Source: Pontiellaceae bacterium B1224 (GTDB lineage Bacteria; Verrucomicrobiota; Kiritimatiellia; Kiritimatiellales; Pontiellaceae). Taken from it: 64,000 nt of DNA. The position numbers and the translations under genes are program-made. Below are positions 4,063 to 56,657 of this stretch, in pieces (positions within the stretch are counted from its first letter, which is position 1; each line of letters begins with the position of its first letter). Below the pieces are notes generated by a model. The model saw only the letters and a program-made list of their open reading frames with translations, was not told the DNA's origin and ran no database searches. The stretch is from NCBI GenBank assembly GCA_029432815.1, contig JAROBA010000023.1, positions 1-64,000 on the forward strand, written 5' to 3'.

Positions 4063-5052
4063 TCATCCAAACGGTTGAATCACCTGAAGGCGGGGGAACG
4101 CTGCGGCAACCTGGCTTTCATTTTCTTCGAGGAACAGCAGTTTGATGTTCGGGCCGGCATCGATGGTGAGATACACCTCAAGCCCTTCGGCCCGGACGCG
4201 TTGAACCTGATGAATCATTTCAATGGATTCGGGCTGAAGATATAGGAGCGGCGGCCAGGCGGACATCATCGTGGCATGCATGGCCAGGGCATTATTTTCG
4301 GCGGCTTTTCCAAGGGTTGGAAAATCCTGCGTATGAATGGCGGTCCGGATCGTTTCGATATCGCGATTCGCCTGCGCCGGCCAGCTCTTATAGAGCTCCG
4401 AGGTTTGGACGGTGCGGTTCATGCCATCGCGTGAACCGACCGGTTTCCGAGCATTGGAAAGTTCGAGAATACCAATCCGGAATTCGTTCCAGGGTTTGGA
4501 AAACGGTTCAGCAAAGGAATCGGATCCATCGTCGCAGTTCCCGGCATGCCACTGAACGAAACCTTCGAAAATGGACCGGGAAGCGCTGCCACTGCCGAGC
4601 CGGGCCAGCATGGAGAGCATTCGCCCGCCCAGCTCCCACCCCGCCAGATCATTCAGCGCCAGCACCAGCGCGGCAAATCCAGACGCGGACGATGCCAAAC
4701 CTGCGGCCGTGGGAATATTGTTTTCGGTCCGTACCTCAAAGTGAGTTCCAACCATTGGAAACAATTTAAGGAATTCCAAGGTTCGGATAGCAAAGCCGTC
4801 GTTCAGGTCCACCGGGGTTCCATTCAAGCTCACAGAATCCGCATCGGCCAGCCGTATTTTAGTTTTGGTACCCAGATTGCCGAGGGAAATGGAAAGACTC
4901 GAGTTGATGGGAAGATTCAGTTCCGGGTCGCGTTTCCCCCAGTATTTGGAGAGTGCAATATTGGATGGAGCAAAGGCGGAACCCGAATCTTTCAGGGATA
5001 ATCCGGCACCTTCGAGTACGTTTTTCACAAATTGGGTTTGAATGTCGATCAT
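4063..5052 (-). CDS. mvaD: Diphosphomevalonate decarboxylase
   Basis: GHMP-superfamily enzyme that converts mevalonate 5-diphosphate to isopentenyl diphosphate in the mevalonate pathway. Visible signatures are NIALSKYWGKRD near the N-terminus, the phosphate-binding loop PTAAGLASSASGF (about residues 113-125) and the C-terminal TIDAGPN with the catalytic Asp. At 329 aa the length is normal. The gene contains a cluster of the 15-bp palindrome at 4308, 4445 and 4487 (variants) and 4746. No other mevalonate gene is in the window. Its first codons and leader are duplicated at 7400-7500. Confidence 0.92.
   Translation of the reverse strand: MIDIQTQFVKNVLEGAGLSLKDSGSAFAPSNIALSKYWGKRDPELNLPINSSLSISLGNLGTKTKIRLADADSVSLNGTPVDLNDGFAIRTLEFLKLFPMVGTHFEVRTENNIPTAAGLASSASGFAALVLALNDLAGWELGGRMLSMLARLGSGSASRSIFEGFVQWHAGNCDDGSDSFAEPFSKPWNEFRIGILELSNARKPVGSRDGMNRTVQTSELYKSWPAQANRDIETIRTAIHTQDFPTLGKAAENNALAMHATMMSAWPPLLYLQPESIEMIHQVQRVRAEGLEVYLTIDAGPNIKLLFLEENESQVAAAFPRLQVIQPFG
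4308..4322. repeat. 15-bp palindrome
   Basis: Perfect copy with centre GGG inside mvaD, read there as DFPTLGK. Confidence 0.9.
4445..4501. repeat. Two variant 15-bp palindromes
   Basis: TTCCGAGCATTGGAA at 4445-4459 and TTCCAGGGTTTGGAA at 4487-4501, each with one arm mismatch, inside mvaD. Confidence 0.75.
4746..4760. repeat. 15-bp palindrome
   Basis: Perfect copy with centre CCA inside mvaD (encodes LFPMVGTH). A decayed copy begins at 4775. Confidence 0.9.
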
Positions 5053-5151
5053 GAATTCCTTGCGATAATTAACTTCTAAAGGAATACATTTCTATCGCGC
5101 GGAAAGCAACGCCACTTTCATTGATCCAGCAGCGATGCCCTCGCGATACCG

Positions 5152-5748
5152 TCATCCATTGTTCGTTGGTGAGCCTGCATTCTCCACAAGGTTGTCGAGC
5201 GTTTCGCCGAGCACATAAAGCAAATCACTATGCTTCAGCGAAGTGCGGAGATATTCAACCATACCTTGCGTATTTCCATTGGTTGGCAATTGCTGCCAAA
5301 CGCGTTCATGCCAACCGGAACGGGACTCGCCCTCCTGAGGCATTGGAATGGGTGACTGAGCGGAAACCACGGCGAGTAATTGCGCAATTTTTTCGCGTAC
5401 CTCTTCAAAACGGTGGTCGATATGCTCGATTGTTTGCTGAAGCCGCTCCTGCACGTTTGCCACCCCCAGCGCTGCAGTTGCCTGCCGATTTCGCCGGGAG
5501 CTGCGCCCCGATCCAGCGGGCTGTATATACGGGTCGCAATAGCCATCAACCGAAGCAATAACTTTTCCCCGCTCGGCGGCAACAAATCCGGACAATGGGC
5601 TGCGCAATTTCCCCAGTGTTTCTTCAAGATCCTGCATCCATTGGATTACTCGGATCGGATAGTCCACGGACCGCTCTTTATAGAGGTTGCTCAGTTCTGT
5701 CAAACCCTGCAAGTGGCTTAACAGCTTTTCCCTGGTATAGGCCTGCAT
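5152..5748 (-). CDS. Unknown helical protein, third gene of the DUF2589 cassette
   Basis: I do not recognise this 198-aa protein. It is rich in predicted helix (an N-terminal helix with LQGLTELSNLYKER and a mid-protein helix with HRFEEVREKIAQLLAVV) and shows no signal peptide or membrane segment. It starts at an ATG with AAGGA upstream, 15 bp after the second cassette gene, so it is likely co-translated with it. The next gene downstream is mvaD, 100 bp away. A partner or chaperone of the two DUF2589-type proteins is one guess from position only. Confidence 0.65.
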   Translation of the reverse strand: MQAYTREKLLSHLQGLTELSNLYKERSVDYPIRVIQWMQDLEETLGKLRSPLSGFVAAERGKVIASVDGYCDPYIQPAGSGRSSRRNRQATAALGVANVQERLQQTIEHIDHRFEEVREKIAQLLAVVSAQSPIPMPQEGESRSGWHERVWQQLPTNGNTQGMVEYLRTSLKHSDLLYVLGETLDNLVENAGSPTNNG

Positions 5749-5763
5749 GATTGATTGTCCTTT

Positions 5764-6456
5764 TTATTCAGGTGTCAAACGCCGGGTAACCGAACCGTCT
5801 TCATGCGTGTCGACGGTCCATTCAAGCCCCTCTTCCCGCAGTGTTACTTTCAAGCGGGTCACATTTTCCGGCCCGGAGCGTTCTTTGACTTCATTCGTCA
5901 GCATGGTTGCCTTTAAACGTGGTGCCTGCGCCTCGCTCAACTGGGCAAGCTCAACGGCTTTCTTCTGCACGGCTGCTGTCAGTATTTTTTTTTGTGCTGC
6001 CGTGATCGGAGATCGGGTTGCGATCTCAAGAACCGGTTTGTTCAATGATTCTGCAACCATGCTGGAGACCGCCTCTTTAGAAGCGGTTCTGCCAACCCCC
6101 GCTTCGGACTGAAATTTTTCCGCTCTCACTGCCAGCTCCCGCTTGAACGCAGTGGAAACGGTGGCCGGAAGTGCTATATTTTTTTGTTTAGCCACTAATT
6201 TCAGTTCGTTGTGAAGCCCCGTTACAAACCCGGCTGGATTTGCCAGTTTCGCACGGTTTCCGCCTTCGTATTCCTCGATAACCACCGGAATATCCACGGT
6301 CATCTCCGGCACACGGATTCGAGGAACCGTAATCCCGTCCAACAAGGGATTCTCCCGATACTCTTCGGCGATGGCCGCCGTCTCTTCATCAGCCATCTGC
6401 CGGGCCCGGGCCAATCCGGCCATAACCGTTCCAAGCAATTCACCAATATCCGCCAT
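5764..6456 (-). CDS. DUF2589-companion protein
   Basis: Unknown 230-aa protein, second gene of the cassette. Its layout parallels the DUF2589 protein next to it: an N-terminal amphipathic helix (MADIGELLGTVMAGLARAR), then a proline-rich beta segment (ITVPRIRVPEMTVDIPVVIE), then a helical middle and a C-terminal beta segment with VTRLKVTLREEGLEWTV. That shared layout suggests two related subunits of one assembly, but this is inference. Good ribosome-binding site (GGGAGA) before the ATG at 6456. No signal peptide or membrane segment. Confidence 0.65.
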   Translation of the reverse strand: MADIGELLGTVMAGLARARQMADEETAAIAEEYRENPLLDGITVPRIRVPEMTVDIPVVIEEYEGGNRAKLANPAGFVTGLHNELKLVAKQKNIALPATVSTAFKRELAVRAEKFQSEAGVGRTASKEAVSSMVAESLNKPVLEIATRSPITAAQKKILTAAVQKKAVELAQLSEAQAPRLKATMLTNEVKERSGPENVTRLKVTLREEGLEWTVDTHEDGSVTRRLTPE

Positions 6457-6490
6457 AACATCTCCCGTTCATCAGTTAATAAAGTGGAAT

Positions 6491-6517
6491 CCAGACCGGT
6501 CCTTCCAACCGGTCTGG
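6491..6517 (-). terminator. Hairpin between DUF2589 and companion gene
   Basis: Perfect 9-bp arms CCAGACCGG (6491-6499) and CCGGTCTGG (6509-6517) with a 9-nt loop, located in the 77-bp gap between the first and second cassette genes. There is no T-run, so it is more likely an mRNA processing or attenuation element than a full terminator. Confidence 0.5.
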
Positions 6518-6533
6518 GGACCGATTGTGTGGA

Positions 6534-7115
6534 CTAGCTGTTTGCCGCAGGAACTTCCGTGATGCTGTTCTCGAGGATACCCAGCAAACGCTCCGTACCC
6601 GCAGGCAGCTCATCCTGCACCGCTCTCACATGCACGGCCATGGAATAGGTGCGCTCGGTTTTCGACCCCGAGGACGACGTTTTTTTATAGGAATAACTCA
6701 CCTTAAGTTTCGCTGAGAATGGTCCCCATCCCGCCTTGGCAGTCAGCGAAGAGTCCAAGGCATGCGAGCTGGCGGTCTTCGACTCCTGCACCGAATTAAT
6801 CTTTGCATTGAAGTCGATCGTGGTTTCCTCCACCCGAATAAACGGGATAGGAAGCATGGTGAGGATCGGTACCGTGAGGCTGTAAGGAGTCGGCACAAAG
6901 TTACCTGTACCGACACCATCTACTTTTTCTTCGACCGGTTTATCGTAGTTAAACGACACCATGGTTGGTTTTCCATCATCCTCATCAAATCCAACAGATT
7001 TGATGAAGTCAACTGAGGTCTGAGCAGACTGCGCTTGTGCGCGGATCACAGCGGTCAAGGGGCCGCCGATCATTGATTCAAAGTCCAAACTGGACAGTTC
7101 GTCTCCAATTGCCAT
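6534..7115 (-). CDS. DUF2589 family protein
   Basis: Matches the DUF2589 family from memory: a short N-terminal helix that includes SMIGGPLTAVIRAQAQSA, then the hallmark stretch VPILTMLPIPFIRVEETTID (about residues 82-101), a linker, and a Ser/Lys-rich beta strand (KVSYSYKKTSS) followed by MAVHVRAVQDELPAGTERL. Length is 193 aa. The biochemical function of the family is not known to me. It is the first gene of a three-gene leftward cassette with a strong Shine-Dalgarno (AGGAG) and an AT-rich upstream region (7195-7275) that may hold its promoter. Confidence 0.78.
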   Translation of the reverse strand: MAIGDELSSLDFESMIGGPLTAVIRAQAQSAQTSVDFIKSVGFDEDDGKPTMVSFNYDKPVEEKVDGVGTGNFVPTPYSLTVPILTMLPIPFIRVEETTIDFNAKINSVQESKTASSHALDSSLTAKAGWGPFSAKLKVSYSYKKTSSSGSKTERTYSMAVHVRAVQDELPAGTERLLGILENSITEVPAANS

Positions 7116-7507
7116 TTGATTCTCCTATTTAGGATTATCCACATTTCACGGGAGGTACCCCCTCCCCTAACTGAGACAAGCCTAGAGAGGTCCTTTATGA
7201 TATCAATAATTTTTAGCGACTTTTAACGAAGTTGAAACTGCAAATAATAATATTATAAAACTATATGCATTTTGACGCAGACATTGATTGCTCTGGAATG
7301 ATGCACAATGTCGCCGTGTTCAAATGACTCTATCAGGACTTGTTTTGTTCTGAAATTTTTCCCGTGAAATGCCGGAATAGGCAAAGCGAAACAGGTTTCT
7401 TAAAGAGAGTATTCGGTAGCTCCGAATACATTTTTCACAAAATGGGTTTGAATGTCGCGCATGAATTCCTTGTGATGGTCGGCTATTAACAGGAATACAG
7501 CTCTAAT
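7116..7507. other. Intergenic: AT-rich promoter region plus mvaD duplication
   Basis: 392 bp with no complete gene. The part next to the DUF2589 gene (7195-7275) is strongly AT-rich with TATAAT-like strings on the minus strand. The part from about 7360 to 7505 is a decayed copy of the mvaD start and leader. Confidence 0.7.
7400..7462 (-). pseudogene. Decayed copy of the mvaD 5' end
   Basis: Read on the minus strand from an ATG at 7462 this gives MRDIQTHFVKNV followed by FGATEYSL and a stop at 7400. The real mvaD begins MIDIQTQFVKNV, so 10 of the first 12 residues agree. DNA similarity continues into the leader (7463-7500 against 5053-5090, including ATGAATTCCTTG and GGAATACA) and more weakly upstream to about 7360. 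I infer a partial duplication that now brackets the DUF2589 cassette. Confidence 0.85.
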
Positions 7508-8650
7508 ATGAAGAAAAGTAACGTCACATTCATTGCCATCGGCATCATCGTTCTCCACATTTTTATCCTAATCTTTTTGGTCGGAACCAAAGGCGATAAG
7601 AAAGAAACTGAAAATCGCCAGTCCGCTCCCGCTCAGCAAACTGCGGAGCTCTTTTCATCATCAGCCGCGTCAGAATTCCCGATACCCGAAGTCAGCATTC
7701 CAGCCGCGCCGGAAATTGCTCCGATGCCCGAACCGGTGGCTATGCCGGTGGAGCTGGTGGAAATCAAACCCGCCGCACCGCGCGAAACCATTGCCACCAC
7801 CAGCAATCTGGCCGGATACCTGCGGGCCGACCGACCGATTAACCGCACGCGACAGGTTTTCCCCGAGCTCAAGAACGATCCCTATCAAAGCGCCATCGTT
7901 GTGGATGCCCGGACCGGAAAAATACTCTATGAAAACCGCGCGGCCGTTTATTCCTATCCGGCCAGCATCACCAAACTGATGACCATGCTGATTGTGCTCG
8001 AACAGATTGATGCCGGGGTTGTTCACCTGGACGACAAAGTGGCCATCACGCAGGATGTTGCCGGCATTGGCGGTTCCGGCGTCTATCTAGATGTGCGTGA
8101 ATCGGGAAACTTCACGGTCGAAAACATGCTTGAAGCGCTGATGATTCATTCCGCGAACGATGCCGCAGCCGCGCTTGCCATCCATGTGGCCGGTTCAACG
8201 GATGCCTTCGTGGACATGATGAATCAGAAAGCCCGGGAACTCGGCATGAACTCAACGACCTATCATTCACCCCACGGACTTCCGCCGGGCGACGGAAAAC
8301 AACCGGATATCAGCACGGCCTACGATGTGGCCATCCTCAGCCTGGCCGCTCTGCGCCACCCGCAAACGCTGAATTACACCAGCACGAAACTTACGTATCT
8401 CCCCCTTTCGTCAATCCGCAATGAAGAATTCATGCTCGCGAATCGAAATGCACTGGTTGGCAAAAAGCCCTATCAAGGCTGTGACGGGCTGAAAACCGGG
8501 TATCACTCTGCCGGCGGCTCGTCGCTTACCGCCACCGCAAAACGCGGCAACAATCGCGTTGTAGCCGTGGTACTGGGATGCCCGAATAAAAATGTGCGCG
8601 ACACTGAAATCCGCAAACTGCTTGATAAAGGTTTTGACGCCGTAAATTAG
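7508..8650 (+). CDS. dacA: D-alanyl-D-alanine carboxypeptidase (S11, PBP5-like)
   Basis: Peptidoglycan enzyme that removes the terminal D-Ala from stem pentapeptides in the periplasm. All three penicillin-binding motifs are present: SITK (Ser153, Lys156), SAN (215-217) and KTG (329-331). The N-terminus is a membrane anchor (about residues 5-27) followed by a Pro/Ala-rich linker of some 80 residues, so the catalytic domain is tethered outside the inner membrane. The C-terminal anchoring domain of PBP5 is missing, as in short S11 members. Divergent from the DUF2589 cassette and convergent with rnfD, 24 bp away. Confidence 0.92.
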   Translation: MKKSNVTFIAIGIIVLHIFILIFLVGTKGDKKETENRQSAPAQQTAELFSSSAASEFPIPEVSIPAAPEIAPMPEPVAMPVELVEIKPAAPRETIATTSNLAGYLRADRPINRTRQVFPELKNDPYQSAIVVDARTGKILYENRAAVYSYPASITKLMTMLIVLEQIDAGVVHLDDKVAITQDVAGIGGSGVYLDVRESGNFTVENMLEALMIHSANDAAAALAIHVAGSTDAFVDMMNQKARELGMNSTTYHSPHGLPPGDGKQPDISTAYDVAILSLAALRHPQTLNYTSTKLTYLPLSSIRNEEFMLANRNALVGKKPYQGCDGLKTGYHSAGGSSLTATAKRGNNRVVAVVLGCPNKNVRDTEIRKLLDKGFDAVN

Positions 8651-8674
8651 GGAATGCTCGCCGGAGCCTGATTT

Positions 8675-9634
8675 CTAGTCTCTTGCCGATTGACGCATAC
8701 GCCTTTGCAACTGCTTTCCACGCACCTCGAAGGCAAGGTGATCGAGTAAAGGAGCGCAGAGATTTCCAAGCAGGACCGCATAGACAATCGCTTCGGTGTA
8801 AAACGTAAACTCGCGGATCAGCGCATTACTGATTCCGATAATGAGACCGCAGATCATCTGCCCGCTTTTGCTCATGGGTGTGGAGACTGGATCGGCCACA
8901 ATAAAAACCGCACTGAACAGGATCGCAGCGGAGAGCAGATTGAAGAGCAGCGAGTTTCCAAAAACGGCGGAGGTAATGCTGAACGAAAGCAGGAAAAAGA
9001 GCGGTATGCGCCAGCCGATGATGCCCTTCCAGCAAAGTAGACCGCCGAGCAAGAGAATCAAAAGCGGGAAGGTTTCCCCGGGGCTGCCGGGCACGAGCAA
9101 AAACAGGCCTTCCCACGTTCCGTCAATTTTACTGAACAGCCATTCCGACCACTCGAGCGGGAAGCCTTCGGAGCGATACAGCTCCTGCGGCGTGGCCGTG
9201 GAAATAACGTCCACCGTCGGCGTGCCCCAATTTACAGTCTGCGCCGGATAGACCAGCATCAGAAAAAGCCGCCCGACCATGGCGGCATTGAACCGCAGCG
9301 GACTTCCAACCATTGGAAGTTTCACAATCCAGACGGCAATCAGAATAGAAAACAGCATCGGAAGAAACGGCATCGTGGGCGGGACGCTAGCGGCAATCAG
9401 CGCCGCAGTAAAACCGGAACCCATACAGACGAGTCGGCGCTTTCGTTTCACGATCAGGGTATAAACGGTTTCAGCCATCATGCCGAGCAGGGCATAACCA
9501 ATCAGCCGCCACACAAATGTGGAATCGTAGAGCGCACTGTATATTGAACAGGGAACCAGCAACGCGAGCATCGCCCACGCGGCCATGGCCGATGAACGGG
9601 ACCCGATTCGGATGAAAGGGCTTTGCACGCTCAT
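8675..9634 (-). CDS. rnfD: RnfD/NqrB-like membrane subunit
   Basis: Polytopic membrane protein (319 aa) of the RnfD/NqrB family, a flavin-bearing subunit of ion-translocating ferredoxin:NAD oxidoreductase. It has the expected run of hydrophobic helices and the conserved FNAAMVGRLF. The region VISTATPQELY holds a Thr in the position where RnfD is flavinylated, though the motif is not the canonical SGAT. It follows rnfC after a 97-bp gap that contains a REP hairpin. A 15-bp palindrome lies inside at 9304. Confidence 0.88.
   Translation of the reverse strand: MSVQSPFIRIGSRSSAMAAWAMLALLVPCSIYSALYDSTFVWRLIGYALLGMMAETVYTLIVKRKRRLVCMGSGFTAALIAASVPPTMPFLPMLFSILIAVWIVKLPMVGSPLRFNAAMVGRLFLMLVYPAQTVNWGTPTVDVISTATPQELYRSEGFPLEWSEWLFSKIDGTWEGLFLLVPGSPGETFPLLILLLGGLLCWKGIIGWRIPLFFLLSFSITSAVFGNSLLFNLLSAAILFSAVFIVADPVSTPMSKSGQMICGLIIGISNALIREFTFYTEAIVYAVLLGNLCAPLLDHLAFEVRGKQLQRRMRQSARD
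9304..9318. repeat. 15-bp palindrome
   Basis: Perfect copy with centre CCA inside rnfD (encodes KLPMVGSP). Confidence 0.9.
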
Positions 9635-9652
9635 TTTTCTCCTCGCCAGGAA

Positions 9653-9676
9653 CGCGATGAGGGCGTCGCGTCTACG
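9653..9676. repeat. REP-like hairpin (GCGAYGAGGGCGTCGC type)
   Basis: Inverted arms CGCGA (9653-9657) and TCGCG (9666-9670) followed by TCTACG, in the rnfC-rnfD gap. The same sequence occurs twice more as an inverted pair at 38100-38176. Confidence 0.8.
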
Positions 9677-9731
9677 CTAGCAGTCATACCCGACCGACCA
9701 ATCGGAAATCGGAAATCATCAATCAAAAATG

Positions 9732-10760
9732 TCAGAGACATTGTTTCCCCTTTTCCAATGTCTGGACGAGCGGGATGCCGGAGGGGCAGACGGCCGAGCA
9801 GACGCCGCAGAGAAAGCATTCGCTCATTTGTCCTTTAAAGGCATTGCCCCCTGTTTTTCCTTTTCTGATTTTTTCCGTGAGCGTGAACGGATGTAAACCG
9901 AGCGGACAGGCGGTGTTGCAGACTCCGCAGCGGGTGCAGGGGCGCTCTTCCCGAAAGGCTACATCGCGTTTGAGAATAAAAATGGAAATTGTGGTTTTTT
10001 CAATGGTCGATGATTTGGAGATCTCTTTGCCCATCATGATTCCGGAGTCGGAAATCAGATGTATACCGGAATCGTATGGGAGCTTGTAGAGGTCCAGCAG
10101 TTCGCTCACAGAAATGCCAACCGGTACGATAATGTTTTTATAGAAACCGGTGGAAGGCATAGCGAGCGTGAGCGGGCGTTCGACCACGGGAATACCATCG
10201 ACGATGGCGCGGCCGACGGCGCGCAATGACACCACATTCTGAATGAGAAATCCGAATTCGTAAGGTCGGCTGCCGGGCGGAGGGCATTTTCCGGTCAGTC
10301 TTTTCAGGATGAGCTTTTCCGCACCGGCCGGATATTTATCGGGAAAGGAGAGGATCTCGAACTCGCTATAGAGTTTATTCACCTCAGCGACAAATTCAGG
10401 ATTGTGCTGCACAGCTAGTATGACTTTGGTTGCGCCGACGACTTTAGCGCAGGCGGCAGCTCCGGCGGCAACCCAGAGCGAATCGTTCAGCAACACTGAT
10501 TTATCGATACTGCTGCCCGGCTCACACTCGACTCCATTGATGACGAGTGTATGTGAATGACGATTGGCCCACAGTTTTTCCGAGGCGGGGAAACCGCCGC
10601 CCCCCATGCCAATCAGGCCAATTTCGTCGAGGAAGGCAGGAAAGGTTTTCGGATCGATTTCATCGATGCCGGAATAGATTCGTTCGGGCCGGGGAAACGG
10701 GGTTTCCAAGGTCCGGAAATCGGCAGGAATCTTCCAGTCAATCTTGATGGTTCGCAGCAT
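9732..10760 (-). CDS. rnfC: RnfC-like iron-sulfur/flavin electron-transfer subunit
   Basis: Cytoplasm-facing subunit that accepts electrons from NADH or passes them from ferredoxin in the Rnf complex. The glycine-rich nucleotide-binding stretch GLIGMGGGGFPASEKL is near residue 50 and INGVECEPG follows. Two [4Fe-4S] motifs close the protein: CTRCGVCNTACP (about residue 273) and CFLCGVCSAVCP (about 315). At 342 aa it is shorter than typical RnfC (about 440 or more), lacking most of the N-terminal domain and any long C-terminal tail. Three bases separate it from rnfG. Palindrome variants at 9753 and 10704 lie inside. Confidence 0.88.
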   Translation of the reverse strand: MLRTIKIDWKIPADFRTLETPFPRPERIYSGIDEIDPKTFPAFLDEIGLIGMGGGGFPASEKLWANRHSHTLVINGVECEPGSSIDKSVLLNDSLWVAAGAAACAKVVGATKVILAVQHNPEFVAEVNKLYSEFEILSFPDKYPAGAEKLILKRLTGKCPPPGSRPYEFGFLIQNVVSLRAVGRAIVDGIPVVERPLTLAMPSTGFYKNIIVPVGISVSELLDLYKLPYDSGIHLISDSGIMMGKEISKSSTIEKTTISIFILKRDVAFREERPCTRCGVCNTACPLGLHPFTLTEKIRKGKTGGNAFKGQMSECFLCGVCSAVCPSGIPLVQTLEKGKQCL

Positions 10761-21000: not shown

Positions 21001-21970
21001 TTATCTTCCCCTCATTTATTTTTCGTACTTCTACATATGCATTATGAGTTAAAGGTTCCTATGAAATAATTTTTCCAGCATTTGCTGGATGATCCAGAAG
21101 AATTTCCACTTAAAACATCCTTTTTGAAACAATGCGGAATTGTATACATATTTTTATCCATGAGCTAGAAATGGTGTGAAAGATTTCCTCCTTAGCCAAA
21201 GGCATCCGCCGCCGCGATGGCTTCTGACCGTTTTCCAAGGCTTGGAAGTCGAAGCCTAACGGTTGAGCGCTGAGCTTTTGCTTCCACGGTTAAAAAAAGT
21301 GAAGCGGGCGTAGAATGGTCCTCCGGGCCGTTTGCTTTTTGCGTTGGGTGAAACGGCGCGACTTGTAGAGAGTCTGAATACCTGGAAGACAACCACCGTT
21401 CTACGGGCGTGCGGCGTGGTAGGCAAGATGCCTGCGGTACGCGCCCTTGTATCGCAGGCGGCTCGCCTGCCCTCTGCGGAGGAAAGCGGTGCGACGGGCG
21501 GACGGTTCGTCGAACCTTCCCTACCAAACTCATTATCACGTAAATCTGCGCCATCTGCGGGCCTCATAATAATGTTCCAAGGATTGGAAGCTGGGGGATG
21601 ATCTTGCCGAACGGGGCTCTGAGGCGTCTCCCTGCTCCGTGCAGGGCGCTGTTGCTGCGGGCGGTGCGGCGGACGGACGGCTGGGACAGCCTTCCCTACC
21701 AAAACATAATCTGCGCCATCTGCGGGCCTAAAAATACCTTTCCAATGATTGGAAGTCAGGGATGCTTTAGTCCACGGAGTGATACTATTTCCGTGTTTCC
21801 GACTGAACAATCCGCCCATTAACAACATTTTTGTCTATTATAATTCCATTAACACACATTTGATTATCATTTATTCACTTCATCATATTTGTATTTTAGA
21901 AGCTTGTCGGGCCCGTCTGGATGGGGTACTAGATTTGACATTGAAAAAAACTAATGCAGGGGGATTTAAA
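21001..21970. other. 970-bp non-coding region rich in repeats
   Basis: No credible gene on either strand. 21001-21200 is AT-rich with a CCAGCA-TT-TGCTGG inverted repeat at 21075-21088. 21230-21755 is a patchwork of 15-bp palindromes, REP hairpins and a direct repeat. 21760-21970 is AT-rich and leads into the rubredoxin-like gene. Confidence 0.75.
21233..21754. repeat. Composite repeat array
   Basis: Three perfect 15-bp palindromes lie at 21233-21247, 21575-21589 and 21740-21754. Between them are a REP hairpin unit at 21498-21524 (GGTTCGTCGAACC core, identical in reverse complement to 37440-37466), a related GGCTGGGACAGCC hairpin near 21678-21691, and a GCAGGCGGCTCGCCTGC hairpin near 21454-21470. 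The string ATCTGCGCCATCTGCGGGCC occurs twice (about 21543 and 21710), each time between a CCTTCCCTACCAAA end and a palindrome, so two composite units stand in tandem. Confidence 0.8.
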
Positions 21971-22084
21971 ATGAAAACTTGGGTCTGTTCGATTTGTGGT
22001 CATGTGCACGAGGGAGAGGAACCACCGGCATTTTGTCCGGTATGCAAAGCAAACGGTTCCAAATATATCAGCTCGACGGTCTAG
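21971..22084 (+). CDS. Rubredoxin-like mini-protein
   Basis: 37-aa protein equivalent to the C-terminal rubredoxin-like domain of rubrerythrin, as a separate gene. CSICG and CPVC supply the four cysteines for one iron, with the family spacing and GHVHEGEEPP between. GGGGG lies about 8 nt before the ATG. It may carry electrons to a rubrerythrin or other oxygen-protection enzyme. It lies upstream of two nitrogenase-associated genes but 268 bp away. Confidence 0.8.
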   Translation: MKTWVCSICGHVHEGEEPPAFCPVCKANGSKYISSTV

Positions 22085-22229
22085 CGTTTCCATTAGAAAG
22101 CTACGCTGGAATGTCGGAGCATTAGTTCCGACAAACCAACCGCTTTAGATCTCTATTCAAATCCAATCATATAGAGCCGCGTCTCATGTCTCTTCCCATG
22201 TGGCGAAGGGTTTTAGCAAAACCGGATTA

Positions 22230-22288
22230 GGCAGAAATATGAAATATGAGGCGGAGGACTGGATATTTCTGCCGACCATTTTTCTGCC
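22230..22288 (+). promoter_or_regulatory. Leader inverted repeat before nitrogenase-associated gene
   Basis: Perfect 11-bp arms GGCAGAAATAT (22230-22240) and ATATTTCTGCC (22263-22273) with a 22-nt loop, and a second TTTTTCTGCC (22279-22288) that could pair with the same left arm. The elements lie 60-120 bp before the next start codon. Another hairpin, TGTCGGA / TCCGACA, lies at about 22113-22134. Confidence 0.5.
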
Positions 22289-22351
22289 TTAAATTCATTA
22301 AGGTTTCGGCTCTGCCAGATTAGATCTTAAGAAACTTCAGGAGTAGGTCAG

Positions 22352-22753
22352 ATGAAGAAAATTGTATTTTATGAAAAAACGGGCTGTAAGGGGAACGCCC
22401 GTCAAAAAGCCATGCTGGAAGCAAACGGCTACACCCTTGTGGTGAAATCAATTCTGGAAGAGCCTTGGGAGAAAAGTTCGCTGCGCCCGTTTTTTGGCGA
22501 TCTCCCGGTCTCCGACTGGTTCAACTGGAAGGCACCGGCCGTCAAACAGGGCGAAATTGATCCATGCTCTTTCCTGCCGGAAGACGCGCTCGAGCTGATG
22601 CTGCGCGAACCGATTCTAATTCGCCGGCCGCTGATTGAAATCAATGGCCGGAAAGCCTGCGGATTTGATAGTTACGTGCAGACCATGCTCGGTCTCAATA
22701 CTCAGGCCGAAGGAATGGAAGCCTGTCAGAATTCCAAAGAGCGGTGCGATTAA
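22352..22753 (+). CDS. Nitrogenase-associated ArsC/Spx-like thioredoxin-fold protein
   Basis: 133-aa protein of the ArsC-like family that includes the nitrogenase-associated protein group (TIGR01616 type, from memory). Diagnostic stretches are MKKIVFYEKTGCKGNARQK, then SLRPFFGDLPVSDWFNWKAP and REPILIRRPLIEINGRK, then GFD. Only one Cys sits in the redox position (TGCKGN), so it is not a CxxC disulfide enzyme. The following gene overlaps nothing but starts 18 bp later and is also nif-linked in other genomes. No nif structural gene is within the window. Confidence 0.82.
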   Translation: MKKIVFYEKTGCKGNARQKAMLEANGYTLVVKSILEEPWEKSSLRPFFGDLPVSDWFNWKAPAVKQGEIDPCSFLPEDALELMLREPILIRRPLIEINGRKACGFDSYVQTMLGLNTQAEGMEACQNSKERCD

Positions 22754-52058: not shown

Positions 52059-52090
52059 TTCCAATGCTTGGAACTTTCCAATGGTTGGAA
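52059..52090. repeat. Two 15-bp palindromes in the DUF3160-A leader
   Basis: Perfect copies at 52059-52073 (centre TGC) and 52076-52090 (centre TGG), 2 bp apart. The equivalent place in the DUF3160-B leader (54438) has only one copy. Confidence 0.92.
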
Positions 52091-52144
52091 ATGGCTTCGC
52101 AAGAACGAGACGTGTTAGCCTATAACCTTTACCGGGGGACGTTG

Positions 52145-54385
52145 ATGAAATACCTATTGATTGTATGGGCGCTCTCAGCCGCCGCAACCGCATTTTCCAA
52201 CGATTGGAAAACCGCCGCCACCCAAAGCGGTCTTTCCCTTGAGGCTATTGAGCAACTGCAACGGGATGGTATCCTGATAACTGACGAAGCCTACAAACAG
52301 GTTTTCTCGGCATACACCAGCGACAAGAAAAATCCGGTATTCATCACGTCTGACTCTCTGCTCAACGCCTACCACGTGCTCTATGAAGAAACTATTTTTC
52401 AAATCGAAAACACCCGCGCCTCCGAGTTACCAGAATTCCTGCGCGCCCTGCTCAGCCATCTTGATCAGGCGGCCAAAGAGGTAACCGGCAATCCTGAACT
52501 GCTCGCAGCCGCCCGGACACGTGCAGAACTGGTAATAGGTATCGCCCTGCGGTTGTTGGACGAATCGTACCGTCTCGGCAATCAGGAACTTGATTTGATT
52601 ATCGGAAACGAAGTGCAACACATCGAAAAGGCCGAAGGCCAGATGATGCCGCCCCCCGCATGGCTGGGAGAACCCTCCGTATCGTTCGTTGGCATTGACT
52701 ACAATCGATACAAACCGCGTGGTTTCTACGCCCGCACCGAAAAACTTACCCGCTATTTCCGCGCCCTTTCCTGGCTACAGTCGACCCCCTTCCGAGTCAA
52801 CAACGACACGGAGCTGCTCAGCATGTATTTGATGAGCAATGCGATGGATGAGATAACGTACTCCGATGAAGTCCAGCTGATCGATTATTCTTTTTTTCTG
52901 GGAAAACCGGACAATCCCGACCTACCCCACACACAACGAGCGATCCACACCATCGACTTCAAGAACTACGACATGGCACACCTCCGAAAAGAGACGCTGG
53001 ATGACTGGGAAGAAAGTAAGATTAATGACAAGGAACCCAGCTACCGCATTCTTTCCGCCTACTGCACCCCCAGCGCCATCCTCTTCCAGCAAACGATGGA
53101 TCTCGAAGGAGTGGAACGTGACCTGCCCTCCGGACTCGAAGTAGCAGCGGCCCTCGGTTCCTCTCATGCAAAAAACCTGCTCGACCCAGCCGTACAGGAA
53201 GCCGTCGAATCGACAGCATCGGAATTCAAAAGTTACGGCTATACTTTGGGCGACTTCGGACCGGTAAATAGAACGCTGTATCCCATCTATCTCCATCTCT
53301 TGAAAACGTTGTTTAATCCCCCCGAACCGGATGCGCCGGATTTTATGAAAGGCGTGCCTTGGCAAACTAAAAGCCTCAACACGGCACTCGGAAGCTGGGC
53401 ACAGATGCGGCACACGTGGGCCCTGCAAGCCAAGCAAGCAATCGCGTGGAGCTGCGCAACCAGCGCTCCAGAAGGATTTGTTGAGCCCGACCCCGACTTT
53501 TTCGCCCAAATGGCCAACCTGGCCTATGCCACCCATAGCACCCTTGATCGCTTTGGGGCGCTGGAACCGGATTACACACAATCGATCAAGGACATCCGCA
53601 CCTTCACCGCTTTTGCAAAACCGTTTAAAACAGACGACGAAATGGACAATGTATTCCATAAGCTGCCGGAGAGCGAGCAGGCCCCGCTTCTATTGGGTTA
53701 CGGCCTGCAATATTCTGCACCTTCCCGTGAATTTCCTCGGGTGGTTGAATGGTTGAACAAACTGGCCGAAGATGTCGAGGCGGGGAAGATCGAAGACTAT
53801 CCCCAGATCAAACAGTGGCTTGACCAGCCCGTCACCAGTTTAATGAGCAAATGGGAAGACCTAGAGCGTATCTGCTATCACCTTGAATCCATCGCCCACA
53901 AACAGTTGCGTACGATTCCACTCACGGAAGCCGATGTTCAGCTCATCGACCTCTTCGGGAAAACCCTCTCCGATCTCATGCTTTACGAGGGGCATGCCTT
54001 TATGCACCCGCGCGACGACGCCCCGCGGATTGTTGATGTCTATTCCAATATCAACCAAGGACAACACCTGCAGGTCGGGATTTCCAGAGCCCGGAAAATG
54101 TATGTGCTCTATCCATGGCAGGGCGAAACCATTCTATGTGAAGGGGCCGTGCTGCCCTACTACGAATTTGCGCACCCGACCCGCCTGAACGATGCAGAAT
54201 GGATATTGATGCTCGGCTCAAGAAAACCGGAACCCAAACGTTCGATGCTGGAAAAAATTCGGAACACATTCAAATACCGATCTCGCAAAGAGGCTGAACA
54301 GCCAAATACGAGACCCGAAGTCCCCGAGTGGCTCAAGCCGATCCTTGATGATGATAATCTCACTGCGCCACAATTCATCGACTAA
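52145..54385 (+). CDS. Secreted DUF3160 protein A
   Basis: 746-aa exported protein with signal peptide MKYLLIVWALSAAATAFS. The DUF3160 N-terminal region is clear: QVFSAYTSDKKNPVFITSDS then LLNAYHVLYEETIF. The C-terminal third includes DDAPRIVDVYSN and LQVGISRARKMYVLYPWQG. The family has no known activity to me; it is mostly helical and found in secreted proteins of PVC and related bacteria. GGGGGACG precedes the ATG at 52145. Its ends are near-identical at DNA level to those of copy B, while the middle is divergent. Confidence 0.82.
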   Translation: MKYLLIVWALSAAATAFSNDWKTAATQSGLSLEAIEQLQRDGILITDEAYKQVFSAYTSDKKNPVFITSDSLLNAYHVLYEETIFQIENTRASELPEFLRALLSHLDQAAKEVTGNPELLAAARTRAELVIGIALRLLDESYRLGNQELDLIIGNEVQHIEKAEGQMMPPPAWLGEPSVSFVGIDYNRYKPRGFYARTEKLTRYFRALSWLQSTPFRVNNDTELLSMYLMSNAMDEITYSDEVQLIDYSFFLGKPDNPDLPHTQRAIHTIDFKNYDMAHLRKETLDDWEESKINDKEPSYRILSAYCTPSAILFQQTMDLEGVERDLPSGLEVAAALGSSHAKNLLDPAVQEAVESTASEFKSYGYTLGDFGPVNRTLYPIYLHLLKTLFNPPEPDAPDFMKGVPWQTKSLNTALGSWAQMRHTWALQAKQAIAWSCATSAPEGFVEPDPDFFAQMANLAYATHSTLDRFGALEPDYTQSIKDIRTFTAFAKPFKTDDEMDNVFHKLPESEQAPLLLGYGLQYSAPSREFPRVVEWLNKLAEDVEAGKIEDYPQIKQWLDQPVTSLMSKWEDLERICYHLESIAHKQLRTIPLTEADVQLIDLFGKTLSDLMLYEGHAFMHPRDDAPRIVDVYSNINQGQHLQVGISRARKMYVLYPWQGETILCEGAVLPYYEFAHPTRLNDAEWILMLGSRKPEPKRSMLEKIRNTFKYRSRKEAEQPNTRPEVPEWLKPILDDDNLTAPQFID
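52195..52209. repeat. 15-bp palindrome in DUF3160-A signal region
   Basis: Perfect copy with centre CGA, encoding FSNDWK at the end of the signal peptide; identical to the copy at 54557. Confidence 0.9.
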
Positions 54386-54407
54386 CCTCCGTTCAAATAA
54401 TACCGCT

Positions 54408-54506
54408 GGAGATAAATACTACGGACAGAATGCCAAGTTCCAAGGATTGGAAATGGCTTCGCAAGAACGAGACATGTTAGCCTATAGCCTTTACCGGGGG
54501 AAGTTG
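54408..54506. repeat. Duplicated leader of the DUF3160 genes
   Basis: About 100 bp before copy B matches 52031-52144 before copy A nearly base for base (AGATAAATACTACGGACAGA onward). The similarity continues through the signal peptide. The main difference is that A has two palindromes and B one. Confidence 0.85.
54438..54452. repeat. 15-bp palindrome
   Basis: Perfect copy with centre GGA in the DUF3160-B leader. Confidence 0.9.
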
Positions 54507-56657
54507 ATGAAACATCTATTGCTTGTATGGGCGCTCTCAGCCGCCGCAACCGCATTTTCCAACGATTGGAAAACCGCCGCCACCCAAAGCGGCCTTACCG
54601 CTGCGGACATCCAGACCCTGGAAGCCAACCGCCTGCTGATCAGCAACGAATCGTATAAACAGGTCTTCTCGGCCTATATCGACCAAGCGGAAAACCCGGT
54701 CTTCATCACCTCCGACTCTCTCCTGAACGGCTTCCATGTTTTGTTCGAAGAAACGGTTTTCCATCTGGAAAATACCAACGCAGGTAAGTTGGAAAAATTC
54801 CTGAAAAAGCTGATCACCAACCCCGATTCCGGCAACCCTGATTTCAAGGGCGATGAAAAGGTGCTGACCGCCGCGCGAACCCGCGTGAAATTAACGCTGG
54901 GCGTTGCCATACGCTTGTTGGACCCTTCCTTTCGTCTGGGCCAACCGGACCTCGATTCTATTATTGCACTGGAGGTCGCACGCATCGAAGCGGCGGAAGA
55001 AATCATCAGTCCGCCCCCGCAATGGCTCGGCCCGCCCTCCGACGATTTTCCCGGCATTGAATACAACCGTTACAAACCGCGCGGTTTTTACACGCGCTCG
55101 GAAAACCTTTCCCGCTATTTTCGAGCCCTGGCCTGGCTCCACTCCATCCCGTTCCGAGTCAACAACGATGTTGAGCTGCTGGGTATGATCCTATTGAAGG
55201 AAGGCGACGAGCGATGCTATGACGAAGAACCAATCGGCATAACCGACCTCTATTGGCTCTTCGGGCTTCCGGACAATCCCGACTTTTTTACCGGCGCGGT
55301 AACATCATCCGATATCAACTATGAAGACGATGGTTTAAACAAAGAACGTTCCGAGGTATTGAAACGTAATGACTGGGGGCTGATTAATGACGAGCAACCC
55401 AACTATCGTATTATCTCCGCAGCGCGCACACCGAGTGCCTTGCTTTTTCAACGGACCATGGAACTTACAGCTGCCGACCGCGATCTCCCGACCGGCCTGG
55501 AAATTGCGGCGGCATTGGGCTCAACAAAGGCGGTCGCACTTCTGAACGAACAAGGGTATAACGGATTAATCCCGGCCCTTCATGAAATGAATCATCTGTT
55601 CCCTCAAGCCTCTTACATCAAGTTGTACAACGGCCCTAGAATGTTTATTGAACTGCCAGACCTTTATTACCGCGCGTTAGCCCTCCTTCTCGATGCCCCA
55701 CCGAGCGATGCTCCGGACTTTATGAGCACACCCGCCTGGCAGCTCAAGAGCATCAACACCGTCCTCGGCAGTTGGACGCAAATGCGGCACACGACCGCTC
55801 TTCAGGCCAAAAATTCGGCGTATTGGCTGTCCAAAGTGGAGATGCCGGCCGGTTTCGTGGAACCCGACCCGGAATTTTTTGAACAGATGGCCAGCCTGGC
55901 ACTTGCTGTCCGTTCAAAACTGAGTAAGCAAACCTTGATTACTGACTATACTGCGGTGGCTGAAGATATACGTTCATGTATTGCCTTTACTAAACCATTT
56001 AAAACAGAAGAGGAAATTCAATATGCATTCCTGCTGATACCTCCAGAAAGACAGGATGCCCTTTTATTAGGCGAGGATCTACCATCTTATGATCCGGAAG
56101 ATCTTCAGTGGCTGTCTAAACTGGCCGATGATATCGAAGCCGGGAAAATCGAAAAACATCCGAGGATAAAGAAGTTGCTCGATGAGCCGAGGGCTTCTTT
56201 GCATCAAAGGTGGGAACAACTGGAACAGATCAGCCAGAAACTGGAAAACATCGCTCACAAACAGCTGCGCAACATTCCGCTCTCTGAAATTGATACCTTT
56301 TTTGTAAAGTCCTATGGAGCGGAACTGGCGAGAGTCATGTTGTACGATGGAAACTCCTATCTTATTCCGCGCGACGATGCGCCACGGATCGTGGACGTCT
56401 ATTCCAACATCGACAAAGGGAAACACCTGCAGGTCGGAATTTCCAGAGCCCGGAAAATGTATGTGCTCTATCCGTGGCAGGGCGCAACCATTCTGTGCGA
56501 AGGGGCCGTACTGCCCTACTACGAATTTGCGCACCCGACCCGCCTGAACGATGCTGAATGGAAACAGATGCTCGATTCAAAGACGCGCCCGTCCTTGCCG
56601 GACTGGCTCGAGCCGATCGTCAGCGGTGGAAACCTGAGCACGCCGAAATTAAAATAG
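54507..56657 (+). CDS. Secreted DUF3160 protein B
   Basis: 716-aa paralogue of the preceding gene, with signal peptide MKHLLLVWALSAAATAFS and the DUF3160 body (QVFSAYIDQAENPVFITSDS, LLNGFHVLFEETVF). About the last 90 residues and the first 30 are almost identical to copy A, but the middle has many substitutions and indels, and the A-specific C-terminal insert with a basic RKEAE tail is missing here. It stops 2 bp before the convergent hemF stop. The start at 54507 has GGGGGAAG upstream; longer in-frame extensions overlap the end of copy A and are not supported. Confidence 0.82.
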   Translation: MKHLLLVWALSAAATAFSNDWKTAATQSGLTAADIQTLEANRLLISNESYKQVFSAYIDQAENPVFITSDSLLNGFHVLFEETVFHLENTNAGKLEKFLKKLITNPDSGNPDFKGDEKVLTAARTRVKLTLGVAIRLLDPSFRLGQPDLDSIIALEVARIEAAEEIISPPPQWLGPPSDDFPGIEYNRYKPRGFYTRSENLSRYFRALAWLHSIPFRVNNDVELLGMILLKEGDERCYDEEPIGITDLYWLFGLPDNPDFFTGAVTSSDINYEDDGLNKERSEVLKRNDWGLINDEQPNYRIISAARTPSALLFQRTMELTAADRDLPTGLEIAAALGSTKAVALLNEQGYNGLIPALHEMNHLFPQASYIKLYNGPRMFIELPDLYYRALALLLDAPPSDAPDFMSTPAWQLKSINTVLGSWTQMRHTTALQAKNSAYWLSKVEMPAGFVEPDPEFFEQMASLALAVRSKLSKQTLITDYTAVAEDIRSCIAFTKPFKTEEEIQYAFLLIPPERQDALLLGEDLPSYDPEDLQWLSKLADDIEAGKIEKHPRIKKLLDEPRASLHQRWEQLEQISQKLENIAHKQLRNIPLSEIDTFFVKSYGAELARVMLYDGNSYLIPRDDAPRIVDVYSNIDKGKHLQVGISRARKMYVLYPWQGATILCEGAVLPYYEFAHPTRLNDAEWKQMLDSKTRPSLPDWLEPIVSGGNLSTPKLK
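54557..54571. repeat. 15-bp palindrome in DUF3160-B signal region
   Basis: Perfect copy with centre CGA, encoding FSNDWK, same as at 52195. Confidence 0.9.

Follow-up and report, generated by a model that had tools for sequence, protein, structure and literature searches.

A three-gene DUF2589 cassette inside a duplicated mvaD-dacA junction of a Pontiellaceae bacterium

In published conjugation experiments with Escherichia coli, incoming linear, non-replicative DNA was trimmed, circularised and integrated by a single crossover, with duplications of 109-950 bp in the sequenced integrants (PMC3240628). Homology-facilitated illegitimate recombination (HFIR), known from naturally competent bacteria, is another recombinase-free mode of foreign-gene capture, with homology on one side, illegitimate joining on the other and, typically, a deletion of target DNA. 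Transposons and integrative elements insert between direct target repeats (target-site or att duplications) and rebuild the ends of host genes, and the integron gene cassette consists of an attC site and usually one gene. Here we describe a locus of Pontiellaceae bacterium B1224 (GenBank assembly GCA_029432815.1, G000 in our sample) that can be compared with each of these systems. The window, that is, the whole stretch of DNA that was analysed, covers 64,000 nucleotides (positions 1 to 64,000 of contig JAROBA010000023.1), and in it a cassette led by a DUF2589 gene lies within a direct duplication of the junction between mvaD and dacA. As in the E. coli integrants, foreign DNA sits within a direct target duplication and no dedicated recombinase is involved, and the duplications seen here (155 bp, and 500 bp at a second locus, L065) fall within the E. 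coli range; however, homology in E. coli was supplied by the plasmid, whereas the copies compared here have diverged to 71-88% identity and no donor fragment is known. In contrast to HFIR, target DNA was gained. The location between direct target repeats, with rebuilt ends of host genes, is reminiscent of transposons and integrative elements, but the cassette has no transposase, integrase or terminal inverted repeats, and its target duplication is at least 10 times longer than is typical of transposons and spans a whole gene junction. Unlike an integron cassette, the DUF2589 unit comprises three genes.

The direct repeat consists of positions 4970-5123 and 7381-7535, ~155 bp at 71-74% identity, and brackets the genes DUF2589, orf2 and orf1. 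Its local alignment score is 75, which neither 1000 dinucleotide-preserving shuffles (maximum 21) nor random window pairs (maximum 29) approach, and BLAST gives an E-value of 5e-17; relaxed scoring lengthens the alignment to 4953-5170 versus 7364-7581, the added tails being weak. The original prediction was that the bases preceding dacA echo the start and leader of mvaD, and the peptides MRDIQTHFVKNV and MIDIQTQFVKNV as well as the words ATGAATTCCTTG and GGAATACA are indeed present, with an alignment score (75 versus 29 or less by chance) that bears out this similarity at 7.4 kb. The predicted repeat was confined to the mvaD end, which is correct as far as it goes, but the copy continues through the start of dacA, so that both copies contain the mvaD 5' end, the spacer and the dacA start, i.e., the whole mvaD-dacA junction. 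In the left copy, the intact mvaD 5' end (4970-5052) and the spacer (5053-5095) are followed by a decayed dacA start (5096-5123, approximately the first 10 dacA codons); in the right copy, a remnant of the mvaD 5' end (7381-7462) and the spacer (7463-7507) are followed by the intact dacA start (7508-7535). Both flanking genes are intact, namely, mvaD for diphosphomevalonate decarboxylase (4063..5052, minus strand; Pfam MVD-like_N, E = 4e-49) and dacA for an S11 D-Ala-D-Ala carboxypeptidase (7508..8650, plus strand; Pfam Peptidase_S11, E = 1e-63). The mvaD remnant still harbors a 20-codon open reading frame (7400-7462, MRDIQTHFVKNVFGATEYSL) with an intact Shine-Dalgarno (SD) sequence and ATG, directed towards the cassette. 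A terminator-like hairpin, GTATTCGGTAGCTCCGAATAC (7409-7429), also lies in this remnant, between the cassette leader and the dacA promoter region, and is one of a set of such sites whose number is near chance.

Comparison with the family reveals the state of this site without the cassette. The sample included 29 genomes, that of B1224 and those of 28 relatives, and mvaD was found in 27 of the 29. The two genes are divergent neighbours in 22 of the 23 relatives with an assessable neighbourhood, and the gap between them is 40-82 bp in 20 of these 22; these relatives have one uninterrupted mvaD-spacer-dacA junction that equals a single copy of the repeat. DUF2589 is absent from all 28 relatives, and none of them carries a duplicated junction without the cassette. 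The locus thus shows the two traits of insertion-duplication, an insert within a direct target duplication of ~100-1000 bp and an empty site in relatives that corresponds to one copy. The adjacency in 22 of 23 genomes, together with the absence of DUF2589 from all 28 and the empty site in relatives, upholds the earlier proposals that the ancestral order was mvaD-dacA and that the arrival of the cassette was accompanied by a junction duplication. Since DUF2589 is found in no relative, the insertion is lineage-specific and is placed most simply on the branch leading to B1224. The genome nearest to B1224 is G020, whether judged by PNP (96%), mvaD (79%) or dacA (79%), and both flanking genes thus appear native; the junction of G020 is simple. 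Two relatives, G028 and G026 (loci L005, 2493-2676, and L031, 1311-1501), have an unrelated insertion of ~145 bp in common; it is foldable, occupies the middle of the mvaD-dacA gap, between the two promoter-like elements, and has ends that are not duplicated.

Exactly three genes, all leftward and including DUF2589, lie between the two copies, just as predicted. The first and most conserved one (6534..7115, minus strand) encodes the DUF2589 protein of 193 amino acids, which matches the Pfam family PF11655 over its full length and above the curated cut-off (103.2 bits versus 23; E = 2e-29; profile positions 2-154 of 154). It is followed by orf2 (5764..6456, minus strand, 230 amino acids) and orf1 (5152..5748, minus strand, 198 amino acids), neither with a significant match to a known family in Pfam, NCBIfam, PADLOC or PHROGs. 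The A+T-rich leader of the cassette (7116..7380, minus strand, 38% GC) contains a sigma-70-like TTAAAA-18-TATCAT element at 7226-7197, a match to the consensus only. Both the G+C content and the third-position G+C of the cassette equal those of the host, with no compositional sign of transfer, so that the acquisition was probably not recent. In the literature consulted, DUF2589 has received one passing mention (PMC3949148), and the family entry describes one protein only, whereas in the present case DUF2589 leads a conserved three-gene module. The protein is 70-79% identical to its homologs in several phyla and, with this level of identity between phyla, must be under strong constraint.

DUF2589 contains an N-terminal helix and a conserved proline-rich motif, VPxLTMxPIPFIRxEE, and the N-terminal helix of orf2, with its PLLxxMxVPRxRVPE motif, bears a weak likeness to DUF2589 (hhalign E = 5e-4, probability 32%). 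Given these features, we tentatively raise the possibility that the two proteins co-assemble, with DUF2589 as the constrained main subunit. When the AlphaFold models of DUF2589 (pLDDT 69) and orf2 (pLDDT 85) were compared with the PDB using Foldseek, and that of DUF2589 also with viral structures, there was no match at E<=0.001; VIA-align returned only middling helical-bundle matches for the orf2 model (Z ~8), and a PDB sequence search with the profiles of all three genes yielded nothing credible. The models of DUF2589 and orf2 thus produced no fold match in support of a specific function of the trio, and matches of DUF2589 to pore and ring structures were not significant and were discarded. 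A role as a defence system was set aside as well, there being no PADLOC match and the flanking genes, named by eye, looking like housekeeping ones. Long forms of DUF2589, with a repeat domain of the GYTSAPTVTI type inserted in the loop between the first strands, were observed at five loci (L116, L119, L124, L126 and L128).

The three-gene arrangement is by no means limited to B1224. In a scan of bacterial and archaeal genomes, DUF2589-orf2-orf1 was present in the same order and on the same strand in ~60 of the 80 loci fetched, and the carriers include Pseudomonadota, Thermodesulfobacteriota, Bacteroidota, Chloroflexota, Bacillota, Methanoperedens and Bathyarchaeota; the recurrence of the cassette elsewhere in the same gene order, which the original prediction left to be looked for, is thus seen in both bacteria and archaea. 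No fourth conserved neighbour was detected in the ~60 loci beyond generic ABC ATPases, nor do the loci have a recombinase or a terminal repeat in common. The evolutionary distances of the three genes correlate pairwise (Mantel r of 0.875, 0.823 and 0.883; p of 0.001), and DUF2589 is by far the most conserved, with a median pairwise identity of 54%, compared with 25% for orf2 and 21% for orf1. By these comparisons, the trio is a real module, with genes that co-evolve. The carriers are scarce, 10 of 388 genomes in the host phylum and 3 or 4 of ~293 genomes in each of three other groups, or ~1% overall, and in the tree of DUF2589, the phyla are intermixed, with several well-supported cross-phylum pairs. 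Taken together, the preserved order, the correlated distances, the scarcity and the intermixed tree indicate that the trio has been repeatedly transferred horizontally as a unit. In the mobile-DNA collections, we found one phage, five plasmid and one viral-contig record, all of them distant (<60% identity), and carriage by phages or plasmids was rejected given this near absence. Of the suggestion that the cassette is a mobile or modular unit, then, the modular part stands, with the order kept and no conserved fourth gene, but mobility in its own right is not supported, considering the lack of a recombinase, of terminal inverted repeats and of a short target duplication, the near absence from plasmid, phage and viral collections, and a junction duplication in only one of 58 other cassettes. 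In two related gammaproteobacteria (L117 and L054), the trio is located near gatB, but a small SnoaL-like ORF is upstream of the trio in one genome and downstream of it in the second. For the Thalassolituus cassette, the empty site was sought through one chosen flank gene, of which no orthologue was found.

The scenario that we consider probable is that the trio was horizontally acquired once into the mvaD-dacA junction by recombinase-free, duplication-generating recombination, after which the promoters were split between the two copies. The DUF2589-orf2-orf1 module would have entered the junction a single time on the lineage of B1224, through generic recombination that adds DNA and replaces none. 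This could have occurred by a single crossover of a circularised fragment that carried a piece of the junction, for which the E. coli integrants are the best precedent, or foreign DNA could have been joined in between staggered breaks on the sister chromosomes, for which homology is not needed; either route would yield a direct target duplication, in this case, one of ~155 bp that covers both gene starts. The two routes are inseparable because no donor with a junction fragment was found, the cassette being present in 0 of the 28 family relatives. As for dedicated machinery, searches of Pfam, NCBIfam, PADLOC and PHROGs matched none of the three genes to a recombinase, the ends of the cassette are not paired by any listed inverted repeat, and there is no short target duplication of fixed length (~155 bp here, 500 bp at L065, none at most other loci).

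The persistence of the duplication might be explained by the layout of the junction. The start codons of the divergent genes mvaD and dacA are ~45 bp apart, and each promoter-like element reaches into the coding sequence of the neighbour. On the mvaD strand, 16 of 18 relatives have TTGCTT in an identical position within the dacA codons, separated by 17 bases from TATTCC, TACCAA or similar sequences; on the dacA strand, most relatives have TTGTAT or TTGAAT at a distance of 17 bases from TGTGAT or TGAGAT, within the mvaD start and immediately beyond it. By pattern matching, we assign a putative mvaD promoter, TTGCTT-N17-TATTCC, to 5081..5109 on the minus strand, with the -35-like half inside the dacA remnant, and a putative dacA promoter, TTGAAT-N17-TGTGAT, to 7448..7476 on the plus strand, inside the mvaD remnant, where the surrounding conserved columns are unchanged in the right copy; a generic promoter scan listed neither site. 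The former element is kept in the left copy and reads TTACTT-N18 in the right one; TGTGAT is kept in the right copy and is TGCGAT in the left one. Decay was scored at the columns in which at least 12 of 14 relatives agree: in the dacA part, 10 of 31 such columns, including the start codon, are changed in the left copy versus 1 of 31 in the right copy, and in the mvaD start and SD sequence, none of the 15 is changed in either copy. Around the -35-like AAGCAA of the left copy, 0 of 9 columns are changed, compared with 10 of 22 other dacA columns (hypergeometric p ~0.015, calculated by hand, post hoc and on small counts). Such reciprocal decay would look like the division of a duplicated divergent promoter. 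Selection would have retained the duplication of the whole junction, which kept a start and a promoter for both genes; subsequently, each copy would have shed what it no longer needed, so that in the left copy the dacA start codon was lost and the -35-like element of mvaD retained, and in the right copy the reading frame of mvaD was lost and the promoter region of dacA retained. Because the whole junction is duplicated and the promoter-like elements overlap the neighbour's coding sequence, each flanking gene keeps an intact start and, probably, a switch of its own, the putative promoter. We infer from this layout that the duplication persisted since the promoter of each gene lies in the 5' end of its neighbour.

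A variant that seems possible, albeit on balance doubtful, is that the cassette came together with a junction fragment from a related species of the same family, so that one copy is foreign; this is a sub-case of the single-crossover route and is compatible with the favored scenario. The identity between the left and right copies is close to the between-species distance, and the right copy is as similar to other species (0.73) as it is to the left copy (0.71), so one copy may be donor-derived; moreover, a weak tree places the right copy with L006 and L008 (support 82). However, DUF2589 was found in no sampled member of the family, the complete mvaD and dacA are both closest to G020, so that no large flank was replaced, and a region this short gives no firm tree. 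The event could not be dated from the tree of the junction copies, which lacked the necessary strength. An order of events that we regard as rather improbable is that replication slippage or unequal crossover first duplicated the junction in tandem, with the cassette inserted later between the copies. The final structure would be identical, and paralogous tandem repeats are common in B1224, but two independent events at one spot are required, and the intermediate, a duplicated junction without a cassette, is seen in no relative.

The possibility that the trio is an autonomous mobile element, with proteins of its own that make long target duplications, can be assessed at the other loci. For 58 other complete cassettes, 800 bp upstream was compared with 800 bp downstream, and a clear junction duplication was absent at 57 and present at one, L065 from a Bipolaricaulota MAG. 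At this locus (genes named by eye from sequence), a segment comprising the fdhD end and the mobA start (7050-7548) recurs at 9992-10491, with 88% identity over 500 bp, and the two copies bracket the cassette (8001-9866); the downstream copy consists of a frameshifted remnant of the fdhD end and then a second complete mobA, and a single adjacent fdhD-mobA pair is found in at least 9 relatives of this genome. Within mobA, the identity of the copies drops from 88% to ~57% in the last third of the gene, which hints at a one-sided homologous join. The repeats around the cassette L092 (Bacteroides pyogenes) are lipoprotein paralogues with 54% amino acid identity and were rejected as a junction duplication. 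Altogether, 1.04 Mb around cassettes contains ~8 spaced direct-repeat events, of which two (L065 and L092) bracket a cassette; this exceeds the rough chance expectation of ~0.3 but is suggestive only, and the newly fetched cassettes L209 and L212 lack flanking repeats. In 504 kb of the B1224 genome, the other close direct repeats that were examined, a few having been left out of individual inspection, turned out to be genes that are paralogous or repetitive, plus a single vsr fragment. We favor a reading of the junction duplication as a side effect of generic recombination over one in which it marks the module. The very patchy, cross-phylum spread of the trio, the further, independent junction duplication at L065 and the presence of two proteins of unknown family would be expected of an autonomous element; yet no recombinase family was matched, clear fold matches are lacking (in itself weak evidence), there are no terminal inverted repeats, most copies of the trio lack a duplication, and the placement beside sbcC is stable in three Vibrionaceae genomes. 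We therefore hold autonomy to be very unlikely, and the same applies to the idea of a dedicated, recombinase-free mode of spread in which one of the trio's own proteins, orf1 or orf2, drives insertion into gene junctions with a long target duplication; if this were true, the trio would represent a new type of minimal mobile module. That the repeat is a product of chance or misassembly is hardly credible even for a fragmented draft of 204 contigs because the copies differ at about a quarter of the positions, which collapsed or duplicated reads would not produce, and the score of 75 is far from the chance maximum of 29.

Several other repeated sequences were observed in this genome. The palindrome TTCCAA-N3-TTGGAA is present in 127 copies in the 504 kb, and in none with spacers of 2, 4 or 5; 24 of the copies are in the window (617, 645, 1464, 4308, 4746, 9304, 11341, 21233 and 16 more), none of them in the cassette. 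Several copies lie within coding sequences, the motif is found in relatives too, and its dispersal is reminiscent of HIP1 or uptake sequences. At G000:C117 (~21700-22480), a complete vsr-like endonuclease gene has a duplicated, diverged fragment of itself alongside, and positions 52064-56657 of the window contain two tandem paralogues of ~770 amino acids with DNA ~72% identical over long stretches.

The present analysis brings out a three-gene module that is conserved in bacteria and archaea and almost undescribed. The mvaD-dacA locus of B1224 is a natural case in which the scar of acquisition remains readable: the junctions of relatives are empty, that of B1224 is present in two copies, and these show reciprocal decay, suggestive of a divergent promoter pair split between them. 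If this split is true, it would account for the entry of foreign genes into very tight divergent junctions with neither neighbour being silenced.
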